In this document: positions 4,321 to 31,592 of the stretch, in pieces
Layout of the letters: each line of letters starts with the position of its first letter
How positions within the stretch are numbered: position 1 is the first letter of the stretch
Source: a virus
Length of the DNA stretch: 39,630 bases
Reading direction: 5' to 3' (one strand)
IMG/VR virus record: IMGVR_UViG_3300027759_000183
Location: 1-39,630 of that record
Made by a program: the position numbers and the translations under genes
The notes under the pieces: generated by a model
What the model was told of the DNA's origin: nothing
Seen by the model: only the letters and a program-made list of their open reading frames with translations
Database searches by the model: none

Positions 4321-6072
4321 TTGTTAAATATAAGAGAGATCACTGCTTTAGTATCTCGTCTACAAACTAAATATGCACAGCGTGATGGACGTATGCGTGA
4401 TGTGCTATCAGTTCGTCAGGGCGATATATCTAAAGTTTATCCGTCGATGTTTTCTGAGGAATATCCAAAGCCTCTCATCGCCAACCTTATTGACGTTTCC
4501 GCTCGTGATCTAGCGGAGGCAATGGCACCTCTACCAACATTTAGTTGCTCTGCTTCTAATATGGTTTCAGATGCCGCTCGTAAAGCAGCAGATACCCGTG
4601 CTCGTATTGCAAATTATTATGTAGGCCGTTCCGAACTTAGTGTTCAAATGTATACCGGTGCTGATTGGTATAACACTTACGGAATGATGATTGGTATGAT
4701 TGACCTTGATTACGAAGGCAATGAACCAACAATTAAACTTATTAACCCATTTGGTGCATACCCAGAGATTGACCGTTTTGGTCGTTGCTTATCTCTAACA
4801 CAGGTTGTTGGTATGGATGCACAGTCACTAGCGTCAATGTACCCAGAGTACGCAGATCAAATTTTAAATAGAAACACATTTACACCAGGCTCTCCATATC
4901 TTTCTTTAGTTCGCTACCACGATAAAGATCAAGATGTAATTTACTTACCAGAGCGTAAAGATTTAGTTCTAGCCCGTACACCTAATCCAATCGGTAGATG
5001 TATGGCTCGTGTTGCTTTCCGTCCATCTATTGATGGCGAAGCTCGTGGACAGTTTGATGATGTACTAGCAGTTCAGTTAGCCCGTGCTCGTTTTGCAGTA
5101 CTACAGATCCAAGCTGCTGAGAAATCTATTCAAGCACCTATTGCTATTCCACAAGATGTACAAGAATTAGCCCTTGGACCAGACGCAATTATGCGTTCAT
5201 CCAATCCACAATCTATCCGCCGTGTTCCATTAGAACTTCCTGTTGGAGTATTCCAAGAGTCAGGCGTATTAGAGCGTGAACTTCGTATGGGTGCTCGTTA
5301 TCCAGAATCTCGTTCTGGTCAACTAGACGCATCTGTTGTTACAGGTCGTGGCGTTCAAGCACTACAAGCTGGATTTGATACACAGATCAAAGCAGCACAA
5401 GCACAGTTCGCTAGAGTATTTGCTGAGTTAGTTAGCATTTGCTTTGAGGCAGATGAAAAACTATTTGGTAACAAGGTAAAAGAAATTCGTGGTATCGACG
5501 ACGGTACCCCGTACACAATGAAATATGTTCCAGCCCGTGCTATCAATGGTGATTACACTGTAGATGTTCGCTATGGAATTATGTCAGGATTAGATCCTAA
5601 CCGTGCAGTTATTGCATTACTACAAATGCGTTCTGACAAATTGGTATCTCGTGACTATGTACGACGTGAGATTCCCGTTGAGATTAACGTTACTCAAGAG
5701 GAACAAAAAGTTGATATTGAAGAAATGCGTGATGCACTAAGAGTTGCTGTAGCACAATATGCTCAAGCAATTCCAGCATTAGCAGCACAAGGACAAGATC
5801 CTTCACAGATCATTAGCCGTATTGCCGAAGTAATTCAGGGACGGCAAAAAGGTATGCAGATTGAAAATATTGTGGAGAAGGCATTTATGCTTGAACCACA
5901 ACCACAGGCTTCCCAAGGGATGCCTCAGATGCCGGTAGCAGGTGCGGCCCCCGCTCCTGCCTCGCAGCCTACTCCAGTACAAACTGGCGGTGCGGCCCCT
6001 GCTCCTGGCGAACAACCACAAGGTAGACCAGACATTGCATCATTGCTCGCTTCAATCGGCGGCGCAGCATAA
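4321..6072 (+). CDS. Portal protein, 583 aa
   Basis: The dodecameric portal forms the DNA entry vertex and docks the terminase. Features typical of portals include the ANLIDVSARDLAEAMAPLP segment, the aromatic motif GADWYNTYGMMIGMIDLDYEG followed by INPFGAYPEID, and a helical stem/crown region around residues 250-380 (ALQAGFDTQIKAAQAQFARVFAE). The last 60 residues are rich in Pro, Ala and Gln and probably disordered. The start is TTG at 4321 after AAGGAATT; no better start lies nearby. It directly follows the terminase and a small gene, the standard order for packaging modules. Confidence 0.88.
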   Translation: MLNIREITALVSRLQTKYAQRDGRMRDVLSVRQGDISKVYPSMFSEEYPKPLIANLIDVSARDLAEAMAPLPTFSCSASNMVSDAARKAADTRARIANYYVGRSELSVQMYTGADWYNTYGMMIGMIDLDYEGNEPTIKLINPFGAYPEIDRFGRCLSLTQVVGMDAQSLASMYPEYADQILNRNTFTPGSPYLSLVRYHDKDQDVIYLPERKDLVLARTPNPIGRCMARVAFRPSIDGEARGQFDDVLAVQLARARFAVLQIQAAEKSIQAPIAIPQDVQELALGPDAIMRSSNPQSIRRVPLELPVGVFQESGVLERELRMGARYPESRSGQLDASVVTGRGVQALQAGFDTQIKAAQAQFARVFAELVSICFEADEKLFGNKVKEIRGIDDGTPYTMKYVPARAINGDYTVDVRYGIMSGLDPNRAVIALLQMRSDKLVSRDYVRREIPVEINVTQEEQKVDIEEMRDALRVAVAQYAQAIPALAAQGQDPSQIISRIAEVIQGRQKGMQIENIVEKAFMLEPQPQASQGMPQMPVAGAAPAPASQPTPVQTGGAAPAPGEQPQGRPDIASLLASIGGAA

Positions 6073-6480: not shown

Positions 6481-6883
6481 AGACGCAGTTAATCCAATTA
6501 AAGGAGCATCAGGTCCAGGTAAGTATGCAAAGAGAATTGATCGTATGCCAGCTAACGCATATGGCGAGCAAAAACAAACAGCAGAAATAGCATCAGGTGC
6601 ACCATTGGCTAGAACTCCAGATGTTCGCCCAGCACCTGCATCAGAAGTTAAACAAGCGGCAACTATGGGTGAAGTGACCCCATTGTTTGCGCCAAGCTCA
6701 CGTCCATCTGAACCAGTTACTGCAGGTGTAGATATTGGAGCAGGCCCAGGCGCTGACGCTCTTATGATGAGATCATTATATTCAAACAACAAAGTTTCAG
6801 ATGCTCTTGCCCAAATGCTTCCTTACGACACCACTGGTGAGATTGGTATTTTGTATCAACAAGCTCTTGCACGGGGTATGTAG
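6470..6883 (+). CDS. Hypothetical virion-region protein, 137 aa
   Basis: The protein is rich in Ala, Pro and Gly for its first 100 residues (for example SGAPLARTPDVRPAPASE) and so probably extended or disordered. A short ordered C-terminus contains SDALAQMLPYDTTGEIGILYQQALARGM. The ATG at 6470 follows GAGGAGGA. Its stop overlaps the GTG of the giant downstream gene by one base (TAGTG), so the two are probably translationally coupled. No family was recognised. Location suggests a minor head protein or partner of the large protein. Confidence 0.65.
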   Translation: MALEDAVNPIKGASGPGKYAKRIDRMPANAYGEQKQTAEIASGAPLARTPDVRPAPASEVKQAATMGEVTPLFAPSSRPSEPVTAGVDIGAGPGADALMMRSLYSNNKVSDALAQMLPYDTTGEIGILYQQALARGM

Positions 6884-9800
6884 TGGCTAATCCAAATCTT
6901 GATGCTGCTGTTTTACAAGCAGGTATTACTGGTAAACAAAAAGAACAAGTTGAAGGCTTATCTAAATTATTAGATTCCCATCGTAAACTTATCTCCCTGC
7001 CAGAAAATGAAGCAAAAGCTTCTTATCAGGCATTACCTCAAGAACAACAAAAAGCACACACTTCTTTCTTTAGTGGAGACAATCCTGCTGGTTGGTTAGG
7101 CGGAGCAGCTCATTATTTAGGTTCTGCTGTTAAAGGTGGCATAGGTCGTACTTTTGGCGCATTAAATGAAATATCAGATTTCTCAACTCGTATTGCTCGT
7201 ACTGGTTTAATCGCAGTAGACCAAGGTGTTGATTTAAGTACAGCTTTTAAAATAGCAAATGACAAAGGCGACAAAGTATTTGACCCAAGTCGTATTGCTG
7301 ATGCTACTAAAAAATACGGCGAAGAAGTAATGTCCGTTGCAACAAAAGTTGCTAGTGGTATGACTTTGAGTGAGATTCAAGCAACAGGTTCAGATGCTGA
7401 AAAATTAATTGCATCTACCGCTGTTCAGAAAAAAGATCAAGATTATTTATTTAATGACGCTTTAGCTGCAGCACAAGCGGCTAAATACTCTCCAGGTAGA
7501 GCAGTAGCAAATCTTATTCTTCCAGGTTTTTTGGAAAAAGGTGCTTTATACAAAGGCATCTCTGGCGTAGTTGATGCTGGATATCGAGTCTTTGCAGATC
7601 CAACACTTATTTTAGGTAAAGCCAAAAAAGCTTACGATGCTGGTGATTTTTTGCTTTATAGAGTATTAGGCAAAGAAGATTTTACTTATGGTAAAAACCT
7701 TCTTGCTACTGCTGGAAATGTAGCACAAGTAGATCGAATATTTGCTAATCCAGCAACTAAAAATCTTTTTAATCAATACGGTGCTGCTTTAGAAAAATTA
7801 GCCACTGCCCGTAAGGCACAAGATAAAATTGCTGGCGCTGAAGCTTATCAACAAGCCAAGCGTTTAATTCCAGAATTTGGTCCTGCAGGTATGGATCAAC
7901 TTATAGTTGCTGGTGTTAAAGATGCCGATACTGCAGCAAACTATTTAAGGAATCACGCTGACGTAAAAAGTATTCTTACCGGTCAAGCTGCTCGTGGAAC
8001 TCCTTTAGTCCCAACAATGACCCCTGCTCGTTTTGCAAGAGTTCAATTCTTTACTACTGCTAACAAAATTATTAATATTGACAAAGCAGGTCAAGCTATT
8101 GTTAGAGCCATTTATGGTAATGCTGGTGAAGCCCAAGATGTAGTTGGTGCTCTTACTAACAAAGTTGGCGAAATTGCTCAAAAAGAAGCAGCGGTAGGAC
8201 GCAAAGTTGGCAAAATAAGAGACGGATCTATACGCTTAAGTAACAATCAAATTAGCGGACGTCTTGATCGTTTTGCTCGTAAGTTTTCAACTATTCCTTA
8301 TTTTAAAAATGGCTTCTTTGATGTGACTGAAGCAAACGCTTCTGAAAAAATATATCAACTTGCTGCATTAACAAACACTCGTTATCACTCTAGGGTTATT
8401 CAAGAAGCATTTGCTGCCGGTGATGAAGGCCAAAAGAAACAAATATTTACTGGTCTTTGGAACACTATTGCAGAAACACGTCAAGTTACCAGAACTGCTG
8501 AAGGCAAGAACTGGGTAGATAATTTTACAGGTACAGCATCAACATACTCTTATGGTTCAACCGTAGTGGTTGATAAAATAGGTCCTGATGGAAAACCTTT
8601 ATTAGATGAATTAGGCGAAGTAATAAGAGAAATAAAAAACCCTGCCGATTTTGACGGACAACAGTTAGCCCTTCACGGATATCAACTATCTAGTGCAATA
8701 GCAGTTCCTTCAGTTTTAGACCTTGATCGTTTATCTGCTCGTTCTGGAATTATTAACCGAGTGCTTGGTATTTCCCATAAAAAATGGGCAGATGATATGA
8801 CCTCTGCTTGGACTATAGGTACTCTTGCTGGTCCTAAGTTTCCTGTGCGTAACGCTGCAGAAGATCTAATGATGCACATTGCTATTGGTGGCAAAACCTG
8901 GGGCATTACAAAAGGTCGTTTCATCTCAACTAAACTGCGTCAACTTAAAGAGGCAGAAGCTGGTCTTACTGTAGAGCAAAAGAAACTTGGTCAAGAAATT
9001 GCAGACCTTACAGCAAAAACAGATGAACTTGCTAAAGACCCACTTAAAGCTGTTCAAGTTAAAGCCAACCAAGATCTTATTAAATCAAAGACCGATACTC
9101 TTAGTGGTCTTGAAGGAAAGAAGATCAAGTTTTACGAATCTAATCTTGGATTTGTTAATCGTTTAGTTGGTCGTAATCAAGTAAAAGAATTTCAGACCCG
9201 TATTGCTGCTGCTGGAGATGATGTAAAAAAAGTTCAACAAATTACTGCAGAAGCAATTATGACAGGTAAACTATCTTCTCGTGCTTTATCTAAAAGAGAT
9301 AAACAATTCCTAGAAGAGTTTGCTACATACGGCAGAACTCAAGATATGCTTGATGAGGTTGTAGAGGGCGGAAAGAATACTCTTAGCGGTGGAAGTTACT
9401 CTATCCAAGCCAGCAACGATGCCAAAAAATATGGCACCCTTCGTGCTCTTGAATATAACGGTAAAACATTTAAACAATCAGGTAGCACATTTACCGACAT
9501 AGATCCGGTAGCTAACGATCAATCACGTTTGTCTTGGCTTGTTAAACTTGCCCTTCATATCAACGATGAGATTGATAGTATTCTTATAAAGAATCTTAAT
9601 GAACCAAAAATTGCTATTGATAATCTTGTAAAGTATTTAGATGAAAACCCTGCATTAAAAGGTCGCTTTCAATCTATGTCTTCAGGTATAGCAACTACAT
9701 ATCAACACGCTGAGCGTGCCTATATGGATGTACTTAATACCTTTAGCAAGGCTAATGGTAAATTAAATGAAGACCTTTGGAACAAGGTTCGTAAAGTAAA

Positions 9801-11763
9801 TCCTGATGGTGAGATTGTTTTATCAAGTAAAAACCTATCGGTAGATGATCTTCCTTTAAAATCTCAAAAAGATATGCACCCAAGATGGATATCTGGTCCA
9901 ACTTTAGTACCAGTATCTGAAGGTCAAACTATGATTGCCTCTATATCAGATAAACTGTGGGATTATATGGGTGAGGCTAATGCTCGTTTTTCTCGTGAGG
10001 GTATTGTACTAGATGCAATGCTAGACATTCGTGGTCAAATGGATGAAACTGGCTTTGCAGATAGAGTATTTAAACAACTTACTGCTGGTAAAACCGGTGA
10101 TGACTTATTAAAAGCTGAAGCAAAAGCAAAAGAACACATAACTTCTTTAGTAGAAGAGATGGCTAAGAACAGAGTTCTTGCTTATGTAGATAATCCTGCA
10201 GTTCGTAGCCAACTTGCTATGTCTGTTCGTAACTTTGGACGATTCTATAGAGCAACTGAAGACTTTTATCGCCGTATAAGCCGTACAGTTCGTTATAATC
10301 CAGAAGCTCTTGTTAGAGCAAGCTTAACTTATGAAGGAATTGCTCATTCTGGTTTTGTACAAACCGATGAAAACGGAGATCAATACTTTTTCTATCCTGG
10401 TTTAACACCTGTTTACAAGGTAATGAGCAAGGTAATGGGATTGTTTGGTGTAAAAGATGCTTTCCAAGCACCTATGCCAGTTGAATTTGGCGCTAAGTTA
10501 AAGATGATTACACCATCCTTAAACCCAGATTCACTATTTCCTACCTTTGCTGGTCCGTTAGCAGCATTTCCAATTAAGATGCTTGGAAACATAGTTCCAC
10601 AAGTTAAAGATTTAGAACAATATATGCTTGGCGCATACGGAGTAGATCAACCAATGATTGCTTCTGTATTGCCAGCACACGTTAATCGTCTTTATCAAGC
10701 ATTAAACAAGGATGAGCGTAATTCTCAATCAGCATCTGCTATGAGAAAAGCTGCAACCTATCTTGAGGCTACAGGTCACGGCATAAAGCCAACTATTGAC
10801 CCAATAACTGGTGAAGAAATTGCTCCTTCATCTGGAGAACTTGCTGCTTATCAAGATAAATTACAATCTTCAACAATGACAGTTTTGGCTCTACGCTTTT
10901 TGTTTGGATTCGTAGCCCCTGCATCTCCATCCGTAACCCTTAAATCCGATATGGCTAAATGGGCAAGAGATAACGGTCAAGTAAATTACAAACAAGCATT
11001 TAATGACCTTATCAACAGATACGGTGATATTGATAAAGCAACTAAAGAGTGGATTAAATACTATCCAGATCAAATGCCTTACACAATATCTGAATCCGCA
11101 TCAAATGTAGTTGCTAACGTTAGAGCCGTAGAAGGTGCTACAACTTGGGTTGATTCTAACCAAGAATTGCTTGCTAAATATCCACAAGCGGCATCTTTCT
11201 TAATTCCAAATGCTGGTAAATTTGATTTTAATGCCTACAAGTTATTGTTTAAGTCTGGCTTAAAAACAAACAAGACAGTTACTGACTTTGTAAGAGAAGT
11301 TAATTCCGCTAAAGATCGTCAAACATACTATTCTAAGCGTGATGAATTTAATGAACAAATGTCCGTTACAACTGATGTTAATGCAAAGCGTCAGATTCGT
11401 GATGAATGGCAGGCTTGGTCTGACCAGTTTAAAGGTGTAAGACCTTTACTAGAAGAACAATTAGGACAAGGCGCTGAAAAAGCTATAGCAAGAACTAGGG
11501 CACTTGATGACCTACGTAATATGTTAAACGATTCCGCTGTTACAACTCAACCTAAGTTACGTTCTATCCTTAATCAGATGGTAACCACTTATGATGATTA
11601 TGTAAATCAACGAGATTTTACTACAAGCGTAACCTTTGGCAACAAACAAGATTACAAAGATCAATTAAAGGAAAACGCTAAATCATCATTAGAATCGTTA
11701 GCCCAATCAGATCCAAACGCACTAGCGGCATACAATTCTTTGTTTGCTCCGCTATTCAACTAG
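6883..11763 (+). CDS. Giant probable internal virion/ejection protein, 1626 aa
   Basis: This is the largest gene in the window. The product is mostly helical and rich in Ala, Lys and Gln. A coiled coil lies at about residues 684-750, and there are several hydrophobic, glycine-rich segments near residues 68-100, 200-250, 1190-1270 and 1326-1350 (VLALRFLFGFVAPASPS). No catalytic motif was recognised, including no lysozyme or transglycosylase motif. In podoviruses such very large proteins between portal and tail genes are commonly packaged in the head and ejected into the cell. That role is inferred from size, composition and position. The GTG start overlaps the previous stop. A polyvalent enzyme with hidden domains remains possible. 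Confidence 0.8.
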   Translation: MANPNLDAAVLQAGITGKQKEQVEGLSKLLDSHRKLISLPENEAKASYQALPQEQQKAHTSFFSGDNPAGWLGGAAHYLGSAVKGGIGRTFGALNEISDFSTRIARTGLIAVDQGVDLSTAFKIANDKGDKVFDPSRIADATKKYGEEVMSVATKVASGMTLSEIQATGSDAEKLIASTAVQKKDQDYLFNDALAAAQAAKYSPGRAVANLILPGFLEKGALYKGISGVVDAGYRVFADPTLILGKAKKAYDAGDFLLYRVLGKEDFTYGKNLLATAGNVAQVDRIFANPATKNLFNQYGAALEKLATARKAQDKIAGAEAYQQAKRLIPEFGPAGMDQLIVAGVKDADTAANYLRNHADVKSILTGQAARGTPLVPTMTPARFARVQFFTTANKIINIDKAGQAIVRAIYGNAGEAQDVVGALTNKVGEIAQKEAAVGRKVGKIRDGSIRLSNNQISGRLDRFARKFSTIPYFKNGFFDVTEANASEKIYQLAALTNTRYHSRVIQEAFAAGDEGQKKQIFTGLWNTIAETRQVTRTAEGKNWVDNFTGTASTYSYGSTVVVDKIGPDGKPLLDELGEVIREIKNPADFDGQQLALHGYQLSSAIAVPSVLDLDRLSARSGIINRVLGISHKKWADDMTSAWTIGTLAGPKFPVRNAAEDLMMHIAIGGKTWGITKGRFISTKLRQLKEAEAGLTVEQKKLGQEIADLTAKTDELAKDPLKAVQVKANQDLIKSKTDTLSGLEGKKIKFYESNLGFVNRLVGRNQVKEFQTRIAAAGDDVKKVQQITAEAIMTGKLSSRALSKRDKQFLEEFATYGRTQDMLDEVVEGGKNTLSGGSYSIQASNDAKKYGTLRALEYNGKTFKQSGSTFTDIDPVANDQSRLSWLVKLALHINDEIDSILIKNLNEPKIAIDNLVKYLDENPALKGRFQSMSSGIATTYQHAERAYMDVLNTFSKANGKLNEDLWNKVRKVNPDGEIVLSSKNLSVDDLPLKSQKDMHPRWISGPTLVPVSEGQTMIASISDKLWDYMGEANARFSREGIVLDAMLDIRGQMDETGFADRVFKQLTAGKTGDDLLKAEAKAKEHITSLVEEMAKNRVLAYVDNPAVRSQLAMSVRNFGRFYRATEDFYRRISRTVRYNPEALVRASLTYEGIAHSGFVQTDENGDQYFFYPGLTPVYKVMSKVMGLFGVKDAFQAPMPVEFGAKLKMITPSLNPDSLFPTFAGPLAAFPIKMLGNIVPQVKDLEQYMLGAYGVDQPMIASVLPAHVNRLYQALNKDERNSQSASAMRKAATYLEATGHGIKPTIDPITGEEIAPSSGELAAYQDKLQSSTMTVLALRFLFGFVAPASPSVTLKSDMAKWARDNGQVNYKQAFNDLINRYGDIDKATKEWIKYYPDQMPYTISESASNVVANVRAVEGATTWVDSNQELLAKYPQAASFLIPNAGKFDFNAYKLLFKSGLKTNKTVTDFVREVNSAKDRQTYYSKRDEFNEQMSVTTDVNAKRQIRDEWQAWSDQFKGVRPLLEEQLGQGAEKAIARTRALDDLRNMLNDSAVTTQPKLRSILNQMVTTYDDYVNQRDFTTSVTFGNKQDYKDQLKENAKSSLESLAQSDPNALAAYNSLFAPLFN

Positions 11764-28070: not shown

Positions 28071-28295
28071 TCACATCTTATCAATAGGGCAGGGCACTGT
28101 TACTAAGTTACCGCAGTTAGCACAGGTTGCATCTAAGAAGTACCAGCAGATCTCATAGTCATCAAACTGGACCAGCACAGTGAATACACTTGAACCGCAA
28201 GGACAGGTATGAAGAGGTCCTAGTGAGCGGAGATCAGATCCAAATTTTTCAGGGAGTTTTTCTTTGTTTCTTCGCAGCGTTGGTAGACGGAACAC
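28071..28295 (-). CDS. Zinc-ribbon protein, 74 aa
   Basis: Two knuckle-like cysteine pairs, CPCGS at about residue 31 and CANCG at about 58, flank a strand region FDDYEICWYFLDATC, ending VTVPCPID. This is a zinc-ribbon pattern I have seen in short actinophage proteins. The basic N-terminus (MFRLPTLRRNKEK) could contact nucleic acid. The GTG at 28295 follows AAGGATACTGG. It is the first gene of a two-gene leftward unit. Confidence 0.72.
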   Translation of the reverse strand: MFRLPTLRRNKEKLPEKFGSDLRSLGPLHTCPCGSSVFTVLVQFDDYEICWYFLDATCANCGNLVTVPCPIDKM

Positions 28296-28456
28296 CCAGT
28301 ATCCTTACTAATCACAGCCCGTAAGGGCTGTTGTTTTTACTCGCTGACGCTCGTATTGTACACATACACACTCCTCCGATAACAGTAGCTGGTGATCAAC
28401 GGCGTGTCTTAGTTCACTATGTGATATCTTTATCTCAAGACATAAGGAGGGCAACT
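28296..28456. promoter_or_regulatory. Divergent intergenic region
   Basis: This 161-base gap lies between the leftward zinc-ribbon gene and the rightward middle operon, so it should contain both promoters. No convincing -35/-10 pair could be assigned by eye. It contains the hairpin at 28314-28331. The ribosome-binding site AAGGAGGG at 28444-28451 belongs to the downstream peptidase gene. Confidence 0.45.
28314..28338 (+). terminator. Hairpin with T-run in the leader of the middle operon
   Basis: ACAGCCC (28314-28320) pairs with GGGCTGT (28325-28331) around GTAA, followed by TGTTTTT. Read rightward this has the form of an intrinsic terminator or attenuator. No rightward gene lies between it and the terminator at 27972, so it may insulate the middle operon from read-through. 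Read leftward it forms a 5' untranslated hairpin before the zinc-ribbon gene. Confidence 0.6.
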
Positions 28457-29029
28457 TTGACAACTGTTGTTGGAGTGCAAGGTAAAACATTTTGTATCTT
28501 AGCTGCTGATTCGCAGATTACCGAAGATAACTTACGTACTATTTCTTTAAAGACGCCTAAGATAATTGAGAAGGGTCAGTACCTTCTTGCGATCACTGGT
28601 GATACTAGGCCTGGTGATATCTTAACTTACAACTGGAACCCGCCAGCATATAAAAACCAAGATGAAGTTCAGTTTATGGGCAAGCGAGTTATCCCATCCA
28701 TCATAAAAACGTTTACCGATAATGGTTACGCTTGGAATGATAATGAAAAAGATAAAGACGCTGGCTTTGATTACCTGATTGCTTTCAACGGGTTCATATT
28801 TCATATAGCCTCCGATATGTCATTCATTCAGTCCGAGGGCAATTACTACGGTATTGGTTCCGGTGGTCAGTTTGCTTTGGGATATATGTATTCACGTCGC
28901 AGTGATAAGTTCTTAGTACAAGATGAGGCAGCAGAGTTAGCACAGAAGGCAGTAGAGACTGCGTCGTTGCTTGACATCAATACCTGTCCTCCGATACAAA
29001 TAGCCGTGCAAAAAAGAAAGATGAAGTAA
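28457..29029 (+). CDS. HslV/proteasome beta-like Ntn-hydrolase peptidase, 190 aa
   Basis: The product is related to the self-compartmentalising peptidases HslV and 20S proteasome beta. With the TTG start at 28457 (AAGGAGGG five bases upstream), removal of Met exposes Thr1 in TTVVGVQG. In that numbering Asp17, Gln19, Thr21 and Asn24 match E. coli HslV, and a lysine sits at 34 near the HslV Lys33. Residues about 145-152, GIGSGGQFALGY, match the conserved GSGG motif of the family. There is no propeptide, as in HslV. It should cleave peptide bonds in a ring oligomer, possibly with a host ATPase. No phage unfoldase gene is seen. First gene of the middle operon. Confidence 0.88.
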   Translation: MTTVVGVQGKTFCILAADSQITEDNLRTISLKTPKIIEKGQYLLAITGDTRPGDILTYNWNPPAYKNQDEVQFMGKRVIPSIIKTFTDNGYAWNDNEKDKDAGFDYLIAFNGFIFHIASDMSFIQSEGNYYGIGSGGQFALGYMYSRRSDKFLVQDEAAELAQKAVETASLLDINTCPPIQIAVQKRKMK

Positions 29030-29199
29030 TGAACAAGACTGCAAAGTTTGCTGTACGGGAAGCTTATGAAAAGGGTTATCTAGATGGTATCACTGCCAGC
29101 AAAGATAATAATATTAATTGGGAAGAGCAAAACAAAATGAGAGAGCAGTGGCTACGGGATAATCCCGATGCAGGATACATAGGATGGATGTCAATATGA
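29029..29199 (+). CDS. Small hypothetical protein, 56 aa
   Basis: The sequence begins MNKTAKFAVREAYEKGYLDGI and is charged and helical, with several Trp residues near the end (WLRDNPDAGYIGWMSI). No family was recognised. It is linked to the peptidase by a TAATG overlap and to the nuclease by ATGA, so all three are probably co-translated. A partner or adaptor for the peptidase is conceivable from position only. Confidence 0.6.
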   Translation: MNKTAKFAVREAYEKGYLDGITASKDNNINWEEQNKMREQWLRDNPDAGYIGWMSI

Positions 29200-30143
29200 A
29201 AGATTTATTAATAGAGATTTTAAGGAACAAAGATGCGGCCCGTAGTCGCAGCACTCAGAAACAGGTTGGACCGTCTGAGTTAGGAGGATGCCGCCGTAAG
29301 GTTTGGTATCGTCTTAATGATCAACCTGAAACTAATGACAACGAGTTAAAGCTTGCTGCCATTATGGGTACTGCGATTCACGCTGAGATTGAAAAAGCGT
29401 TGGCTATTGCTGATCCATCCGGGGAAAAGTATGTAGTCGAAACTGAGGTCGAGTACAACGGAATGAAAGCACACATCGACCTATGGATTCCTGAAACTGG
29501 TGATGTTGTAGATTGGAAAACTGTTAAGGTTAAGAACCTTTCATACTTCCCATCACAACAACAGCGGTGGCAGGTGCAGGTGTATGGCTACTTGTTAGAG
29601 AAATCTGGTAAGGGGATTCCCAGAAATGTCAACCTTGTAGCCATCGCCCGTGATGGTGATGAAAGAGATGTAAAGGTCCACTCTGAACCATATGATTCTA
29701 AGATTGCAGAAGAAGCAATGAACTGGTTGTCTGCTATTAAGGAAGCTACTAGTGCACCAGAGCCTGAGAAGGATGAGAATTACTGTAAGTTCTACTGTAA
29801 ATATTATGACGCTACTGGCGAGATGGGATGCGTTGGCTTAAAAAAAGAACGTATCAAAGAGGCAGAGGTGGTGATTGATAACCCCGACGCCGACAAGAAC
29901 GCTTTGTTATATTTACAACTTGATGAACAAGTTAAAACTTTAACAAACGCAAGGGATTCAGTTAAGACATCACTAGAAGGATTTGCTGGCACTACTAACA
30001 GTGGTATCCAAATATATTGGACATCTGTTGCTGGTCGCAAGCAAGTCGATTCCGATGAAGTAGAAAAACTTCTCGGTTTCGTACCGTACAAACAAGGACA
30101 AGAGACCACCCGTATCTCTGTCAAACCAACTGGAGGAAAATAA
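29196..30143 (+). CDS. Cas4/RecB-like PD-(D/E)XK nuclease with Fe-S cysteines, 315 aa
   Basis: A nuclease of the Cas4/AddB superfamily. It shows His62 in GTAIHAE, Asp95 in AHIDLW, the D-x-K pair Asp106/Lys108 in VVDWKT, and QVQVYGY at about 127-132. Four cysteines, Cys32 in GGCRRK and Cys197, Cys201 and Cys212 in YCKFYC-x10-C, have the one-plus-three arrangement that binds a 4Fe-4S cluster in this family. It probably processes DNA ends in replication or recombination. The ATG at 29196 (ATGA overlap) has AGGATGG upstream at good distance; an ATG at 29184 lacks one. Confidence 0.85.
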   Translation: MKDLLIEILRNKDAARSRSTQKQVGPSELGGCRRKVWYRLNDQPETNDNELKLAAIMGTAIHAEIEKALAIADPSGEKYVVETEVEYNGMKAHIDLWIPETGDVVDWKTVKVKNLSYFPSQQQRWQVQVYGYLLEKSGKGIPRNVNLVAIARDGDERDVKVHSEPYDSKIAEEAMNWLSAIKEATSAPEPEKDENYCKFYCKYYDATGEMGCVGLKKERIKEAEVVIDNPDADKNALLYLQLDEQVKTLTNARDSVKTSLEGFAGTTNSGIQIYWTSVAGRKQVDSDEVEKLLGFVPYKQGQETTRISVKPTGGK

Positions 30144-30508: not shown

Positions 30509-30763
30509 ATGCGGGTTCCCACAAAATTTGAGAACCCGTTATGTTCTGAGATAGATACAGAACTATTCTTCCCTGAAAACGGTGAACAATTTCAAGCCGC
30601 TACCGCTAAGAATGTTTGTAAGAGATGCCCACACATTACTGAATGTTTTGAGTGGGCATTACATAACGAATCATATGGAATATGGGGAGCAAGTTCTCCT
30701 AGGGATCGTAAGAGATTACGAGCAAAGTTAAACATACAGTTAAGAAGGGAAGAGGTTGCTTAG
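30509..30763 (+). CDS. WhiB-family Fe-S transcription regulator, 84 aa
   Basis: WhiB-like proteins are found in actinobacteria and their phages, and bind the primary sigma factor. The four cluster ligands are present: Cys12, then Cys37-x2-Cys40-x5-Cys46 in VCKRCPHITEC. The GIWGASS turn at about 57-63 and the basic C-terminus (RDRKRLRAKLN) are typical. The phage protein probably redirects host RNA polymerase or represses host promoters. It follows the zinc-finger gene by three bases and overlaps the ATPase gene by eight. This is the best single marker of an actinobacterial host. Confidence 0.93.
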   Translation: MRVPTKFENPLCSEIDTELFFPENGEQFQAATAKNVCKRCPHITECFEWALHNESYGIWGASSPRDRKRLRAKLNIQLRREEVA

Positions 30764-31592
30764 TCTAAGCAGAGCGTGGGGTGGAGTCACTACAAAGGCT
30801 ACACCGCTACCTGATGTGTGGCCTTCTTTGAAGGCTTCTGAAATCAGGTTTAGACGTGGACAAGTTTGTATGGTTGCTGCTGCACCCAATGCAGGTAAGT
30901 CTATGTTTGCTTTGATTTATGCTTTGAAAGCTGACGTAAGAACCTTATTCTTTTCTGCTGACACCGACACCACAACAGTTATGATGCGAGCAGCATCTCA
31001 TCTATCAGGTAATTCACAACTAACCGTTGAGAATAATTTAAATGCCAGTCCTAAATGGTATGACAAACACTTTGATAAGATGAAAAATATCCAATGGGTC
31101 TTTGATTCATCACCTTCATTAGATGATATTGAGAGTGAGATCAAGGCATACATAGAGTTATACGGTGCTGCTCCTGAACTAATTGTTATAGATAACCTTA
31201 TGAATATTGCTGCTGAAACTGATAATGAATGGGCAGGTCTTAGATCTATTATGATGGAGTTGCACGATATGGCTCGTCATACTGAAGCCTGCGTCTTAGT
31301 TCTTCATCACGTATCAGAGCAGAGTGAGTATGGACAGGGTATGAACCCACCACCTCGCAGAGCTATTCACGGTAAAGTAGCACAATTACCCAGCCTGATA
31401 TTAACAATGGGTTATGATCCTTTTAATAAACATCTAAGGGTTGCAGTTGTTAAGAACCGGTTTGGTCCACACGCAGCGGATGGATCTATTTCAGTACCTT
31501 TGGCAGTTGACTATGCTCACTGTCAGATAGTTGAAAGAGATGCAGCACCTGTTGTATACAAAAAATTTGACCAAGCATCCATACTACATTAG
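30756..31592 (+). CDS. DnaB/RecA-like ATPase, probable replicative helicase, 278 aa
   Basis: A RecA-fold ATPase of the DnaB/RepA type. Walker A is APNAGKS at about 43-49. A TLFFSADTD strand carries the acidic residue after Walker A. Walker B is LIVIDN at about 142-147. A VLVLHHVSE motif corresponds to the DnaB-type H3 region, followed by a basic segment and a C-terminal strand (AVVKNRFGP). The length fits a stand-alone C-terminal helicase domain without the DnaB N-domain. The TTG start at 30756 overlaps whiB. Context with a primase and nuclease fits replication. Confidence 0.82.
   Translation: MLSLSRAWGGVTTKATPLPDVWPSLKASEIRFRRGQVCMVAAAPNAGKSMFALIYALKADVRTLFFSADTDTTTVMMRAASHLSGNSQLTVENNLNASPKWYDKHFDKMKNIQWVFDSSPSLDDIESEIKAYIELYGAAPELIVIDNLMNIAAETDNEWAGLRSIMMELHDMARHTEACVLVLHHVSEQSEYGQGMNPPPRRAIHGKVAQLPSLILTMGYDPFNKHLRVAVVKNRFGPHAADGSISVPLAVDYAHCQIVERDAAPVVYKKFDQASILH

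Follow-up and report, generated by a model that had tools for sequence, protein, structure and literature searches.

The window analyzed here, a 39.6-kb IMG/VR virus record taken at its full length (39,630 nucleotides), comes from a common freshwater virus group infecting actinobacteria and encodes a terminase, portal, major capsid protein, tail fibers, endolysin, WhiB, DnaB, primase, and sigma factor. Among these genes lies one for a proteasome-family protein (hereafter the hslV-like gene), in a slot bordered by a zinc-ribbon-like ORF and an exonuclease gene. The features of this region are as follows.

28071-28295, minus strand: divergent 74-aa zinc-ribbon-like ORF, one border of the slot, present in 75 of 80 relatives and at 170 of 172 slot loci
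28314-28331, plus strand: terminator-like hairpin followed by a T-run, 5' of the hslV-like gene (consensus match only)
28340-28408, no strand assigned: conserved upstream region, putatively regulatory, with the CTCGCTGACGCTCGTATTGTA block and with CGGCGTGTC at 28400-28408
28444-28450, plus strand: Shine-Dalgarno sequence AAGGAGG, kept in close relatives
28457-29029, plus strand: hslV-like gene, predicted proteasome-family (HslV/BPH-like) N-terminal threonine peptidase of 190 aa, TTG start
28460-28462, plus strand: codon of Thr1, the putative nucleophile, an invariant residue
28508-28510, plus strand: codon of Asp17, an invariant residue
28559-28561, plus strand: codon of Lys34, an invariant residue
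28598-28600, plus strand: codon of Gly47 (oxyanion), an invariant residue
28856-28867, plus strand: GSGG motif, residues 133-136
29029-29199, plus strand: small 56-aa ORF right after the hslV-like gene, not always present
29184-30143, plus strand: Cas4/RecB-type exonuclease, the other border of the slot
30509-30763, plus strand: WhiB-like regulator in the same operon, an actinophage marker
30756-31592, plus strand: DnaB-like helicase in the same operon, used as a bait gene

The product of 28457-29029 matched Pfam PF00227 (Proteasome; 5.8e-9, above the curated cut-off) and the profile of PHROG 1040 ("peptidase HslV family"; 1.6e-25), and a PDB search with the family profile retrieved the betaproteobacterial proteasome homologue BPH (6e-10), HslV, and 20S beta chains. 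An AlphaFold model built from 34 sequences (pLDDT 84, pTM 0.84) recovered the HslV/proteasome fold for which structure prediction had been proposed, with a Foldseek match to the PDB at 7e-10 and probability 1.00; BPH was the best PDB match (TM 0.71), followed by 20S beta and HslV (TM 0.67). As modeled, the protein is an Ntn alpha-beta-beta-alpha fold of the PF00227/MEROPS T1 superfamily. The original prediction had aligned it by eye and without gaps to E. coli HslV through Thr1, Asp17, Gln19, Thr21, and Asn24, and these positions hold against a reference sequence identical to PDB 1e94, as does the GSGG motif. The lysine that it had placed near position 33 is indeed present but required correction, as the catalytic residue is K34, shifted by a single-residue insertion from Lys33 of HslV and 20S subunits; K34 occurs in 136 of 136 sequences, while K31 varies. 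Across 135 distinct relatives, there was zero variation at T1, T2, D17, Q19, T21, and K34, and likewise at G47, D48, R50, D53, D172, and N174, with position 24 being N or D across the family. Pairwise dN/dS among close relatives was ~0.05 (0.035-0.07), and the protein is thus under strong purifying selection.

A true start further upstream would leave Thr1 unexposed. In every hslV-like relative inspected, the start codon and the following Thr-Thr fall at the identical point, while the frame 5' of the start is variable and often closed within 1-8 codons, and no conserved upstream extension was found among these relatives. In addition, a TANNNT -10-like box ends 4-9 nt before the start at 90 of 137 distinct loci, against a background of 9% estimated from random positions. 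Together, the fixed start, the variable or closed upstream frame, and the nearby box leave no room for a conserved propeptide. Methionine aminopeptidase removes Met before Thr, so a Met-Thr start would expose Thr1, and the earlier expectation that removal of Met alone suffices stands as a prediction from the sequence.

The same -10-like layout precedes an alternative gene of the slot, the HExxH gene described below, at 26 of 35 loci. The hslV-like loci with this box nearly always start with ATG and usually lack a Shine-Dalgarno sequence, a layout as expected for leaderless mRNA, and most of the remaining loci, including the window, combine a Shine-Dalgarno sequence with a TTG, GTG, ATC, or ATA start. 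The gene therefore appears to have two initiation architectures, leaderless ATG versus Shine-Dalgarno plus TTG, the window being of the latter type. In many relatives, a GTGTCGC..GCGACAC palindrome adjoins a -10-like box at this distance of 4-9 nt from the ATG. The ATC and ATA starts (L048, L207, L248, L271, L373, L390, L402, L412, and L418) belong to several lineages, mostly with a Shine-Dalgarno sequence, and four of these nine distinct cases have no in-frame start upstream at all; such rare starts could limit translation. Conserved blocks occur over 28340-28460 and the corresponding region of relatives. Among them, a CTCGC..GCTCG element at 28340-28360 has outer bases that seem to co-vary in relatives (AC..GT, AT..AT, TC..GA), and its minus strand includes TACAAT, which might serve the divergent ORF as a promoter. 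As a genome-wide operator, CGGCGTGTC found no support, with only two copies in the window, which is not above chance.

Gene order in the relatives runs from the divergent zinc-ribbon ORF through the hslV-like gene and the exonuclease to WhiB and DnaB, and this fixed place bears out the claim that the gene heads an early or middle operon. An actinobacterial host, also proposed from the sequence, is well supported by WhiB, by the relatives of the DnaB-like helicase, which were actinophages only apart from unannotated ct2KA10 records, and by a cultured, largely colinear relative (OX376641, LanE43-AprF5, judging by its name Planktophila phage F5, isolated on Ca. Planktophila). With Ca. Planktophila LanE-43 and its phages E7 and F5, a host and phages bearing a homologue are available in culture (PMC10202952), and the host order is likely Nanopelagicales. 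The portal (4321-6072) had no Pfam or PHROG match and was 40-49% identical to portals of Streptomyces phages (42% for annotated ones) and ct2KA10. The head/tail module also contains a 1626-aa ORF (6883-11763) without a Pfam match.

No phage ATPase partner had been visible to the first reading, and none emerged here: searches with PF00004 (AAA) and PF07724 (HslU-type) were empty for the window and its near-complete relatives, although the host may have an HslU. Two candidates elsewhere were rejected. The AAA gene of DSL-LC01 lies ~10 kb away, adjoins a gene annotated as cobalamin biosynthesis, and is probably of CobS/CobT type, and the single AAA match in LanE43AprF5 overlaps its DnaB-like helicase gene.

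We placed the protein among its relatives using trees of 54 sequences, in which the long branches leave the deep order unsure. Phage homologues split from HslV, 20S beta, and BPH with support of 99/99, and the branch of the window's group also holds DSL-LC01-like phages, Pumpernickel (Microbacterium), and LanE43AprF5, with mixed support (66/97). The sister of the Met-Thr-Thr actinophage branch consists of proteins from phages and plasmids, the majority beginning Met-Thr-Cys; these are suspected to include AAH and PPH, which Fuchs, Alva and Lupas described in 2021 as proteasome homologues associated with phages (PMC8665760). A clade uniting the hslV-like proteins with HslV was weakly rejected (AU p=0.031) and there was no grouping with PrcB, so the membership in HslV or PrcB for which phylogeny had been suggested as a check was not borne out; BPH stands apart in the tree, yet a joint clade with it was not rejected (AU p=0.25). 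Hence, the gene represents a phage-specific branch of proteasome homologues rather than HslV proper, insofar as the HslV clade is weakly rejected. With the window protein as query, no close relatives were found in bacterial genomes, and the same search with a profile returned nothing beyond genes resembling BPH in proteobacterial MAGs and one short, partial hit in a Nanoarchaeota MAG.

PHROG 1040 proteins (from DSL-LC01, Planktophila phages LanE43AprE7/F5, Pumpernickel, and others) share full-length homology and the same catalytic residues with the window protein and, like it, have no recognized cognate ATPase, but those of the named phages are at best 31-33% identical to it, and the window's group differs by its slot in the early operon and by the metallopeptidase that can occupy this slot instead. 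The nearest solved relative in both sequence and fold is BPH (PDB 5ovs/5ovu), which likewise has no propeptide, no known unfoldase, and a longer charged pore loop than HslV; its loop is strongly acidic, while that of the window family is mildly so (mostly 11-15 aa, median net charge -2), and its context is bacterial whereas the window homologue is phage-borne. HslV (ClpQ) shares the fold, Thr1/Asp17/Lys, and GSGG with the window protein but works with HslU, for which no gene was found with the latter. AAH and PPH resemble the window protein in being phage-borne, compact, and without a propeptide; PPH is ~140 aa (PMC8665760) versus 190 aa here, and the 2021 survey reported no Actinobacteria-specific phage with AAH and no telling genomic context (PMC8665760). 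Elsewhere, Aeromonas phage 2L372X (L190) has two adjoining genes that are each annotated "peptidase HslV family," and other phage or plasmid hslV-like genes (L183, L185, L187, L191, L193, and L194) have a gene for thymidylate synthase, ThyX, thymidylate kinase, or dCMP deaminase in their vicinity, an observation made without control for how common such neighbors are.

Within the window's group, the slot between the zinc-ribbon ORF and the exonuclease always holds one of two genes. Among 233 distinct relatives with readable flanks, 193 had the hslV-like gene and 40 had the HExxH gene, with none having both and none neither, and an earlier set of 172 distinct loci divided in the same way (137 and 35, again with no locus having both or neither); these loci are metagenomic and related, and the counts are not independent events. 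The DnaB and exonuclease baits are independent of the slot gene and so exert no selection on it. With the DnaB bait, the first set contained the hslV-like gene in 30 of 39 loci with enough flank, and all nine loci that lacked it, plus one more, had the HExxH gene in the same place. By bait, the hslV-like and HExxH counts were 35 and 10 for DnaB, and 39 and 18, 59 and 0, and 26 and 11 for three exonucleases. The exclusion extends beyond the slot, as searches over the whole length found no hslV-like gene in near-complete HExxH records and no HExxH gene in near-complete hslV-like records (including LanE43AprF5 and DSL-LC01), at tblastn thresholds of 1e-3 to 1e-4, at which highly diverged homologues could be missed. 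By parsimony, the exonuclease tree requires eight switches of the protease, at least five of them forced by supported branches; these counts come from a single quick tree on which SH-aLRT was the sole measure of support. Between the most similar loci that differ in their protease, the DNA on either side of the gene is 80-91% identical, and the two protease ORFs are without recognizable likeness. The zinc-ribbon ORF was considered as a co-swapped partner and rejected, since its own, poorly resolved tree needs 12 changes and no co-segregation with the protease was seen. Some relatives carry other small genes beside the slot gene.

The HExxH family comprises proteins of 107-127 aa (~110 aa) in which the HExxH motif takes the form HEVTHAVI or a variant of it, e.g., L202:2976-3359, L204:3964-4287, and L247:3739-4071 among the 40 distinct loci, and the residues H53, E54, H57, E74, E75, and H83 are constant. 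We liken it to Pfam DUF6782 ("putative metallopeptidase"), whose cut-off was passed by three of four members, to PHROG 1233, and more weakly to M78/IrrE and SprT, which suggests a zincin-type protein unrelated to the hslV-like one and having in common with it the slot and a predicted peptidase nature. Its AlphaFold model was confident (88), and a fold search against the PDB returned no significant match (best E 0.14), with zincins such as IrrE/PprI and selecase prominent among the weak matches; the assignment as a peptidase accordingly rests on the motif and Pfam. No homologues were found among INPHARED phages, and in the remote relatives L308, L328, L330, and L334 the HExxH gene sits among replication genes instead of in the slot.

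That the slot is occupied by either gene, never by both or neither, suggests that infection needs a proteolytic step that either enzyme can supply. We lean, with modest confidence, toward the hslV-like protein being an early viral threonine peptidase that performs a protease-generic step which a zincin can take over, and the broader proposal, that phages of freshwater actinobacteria require one early proteolytic step for which a viral proteasome homologue and an HExxH metallopeptidase are interchangeable, seems to us evenly poised. In the course of events that we infer, the promoter-proximal position in a replication and takeover operon would lead to early expression, removal of the initiator Met would make Thr1 the nucleophile, and the subunits would assemble into a BPH/HslV-like ring with the active site inside and no dedicated unfoldase; the peptidase would then cut or degrade a single protein, or a small number of proteins, of host or phage. 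In sister phages, the putative metallopeptidase, with matching flanks and a similar promoter layout, fills the same place. The earlier suggestion that the protein replaces or poisons the host proteasome gained no support; the swap with an unrelated putative metallopeptidase points instead to straightforward proteolysis, and because a small zincin takes the same place, the task would most simply be to cleave one specific protein, of host or phage origin, and not bulk degradation. One slot for two proteases is no proof of one function, and further observations count against the favored reading: the LanE43AprF5 homologue lies outside the early operon, the HExxH model lacks a significant fold match, and BPH, the nearest characterized relative, was inert in standard assays (PMC5777263). 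Given that inertness, a narrow substrate range of the hslV-like peptidase would not be surprising.

The first operon position might instead be a hot spot at which accessory takeover or counter-defense genes are exchanged, so that the two proteases would have different targets. Repeated swaps with near-identical flanks fit cargo exchange too, and so do the additional small genes beside the slot gene in some relatives. Such a hot spot should, however, show empty, double, or third-type slots, which were seen at 0 of 233 distinct loci; moreover, the exclusion holds across whole genomes, including those that carry the gene at another site (LanE43AprF5 and the four remote relatives), and both kinds of gene are predicted peptidases. 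We consider this unlikely. Slightly less probable still is a head maturation or virion protease that processes scaffold, portal, or another virion protein. This alternative is kept because the LanE43AprF5 homologue (L084:20001-20537) begins 15 nt after the portal gene, a usual position for a prohead protease, and no other head protease was recognized in the head module of the window. Yet the head-module place was found only in LanE43AprF5, and the two alleles found in the window's group are both early-operon genes that neighbor the exonuclease and helicase; in addition, neither of the protease families occurs in Streptomyces phages whose portal and capsid are homologous, and the window has a separate scaffold-like gene. 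It is very improbable that the protein docks on a host AAA+ unfoldase (of Mpa, ClpX, or HslU type) or redirects or poisons host proteasome subunits: an HslV-like fold without a phage ATPase and an actinobacterial host would suit such a partner, but replacement by a ~110-aa zincin is not expected of a subunit mimic, and the invariant active-site residues make a mere poison subunit unlikely.

When phage proteasome homologues were first described, in 2021, nothing hinted at their function (PMC8665760). One branch of them is a fixed gene, under strong constraint, in a phage group that is very common and in which a natural experiment has replaced the viral proteasome homologue with an unrelated predicted protease at least five times. 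The role of these homologues is now testable by seeking a substrate that both enzymes cut. If the proposal of interchangeable proteases is true, it would give a first functional lead for proteasome homologues of viruses and an example of unrelated proteases that have repeatedly replaced each other at a single viral locus.
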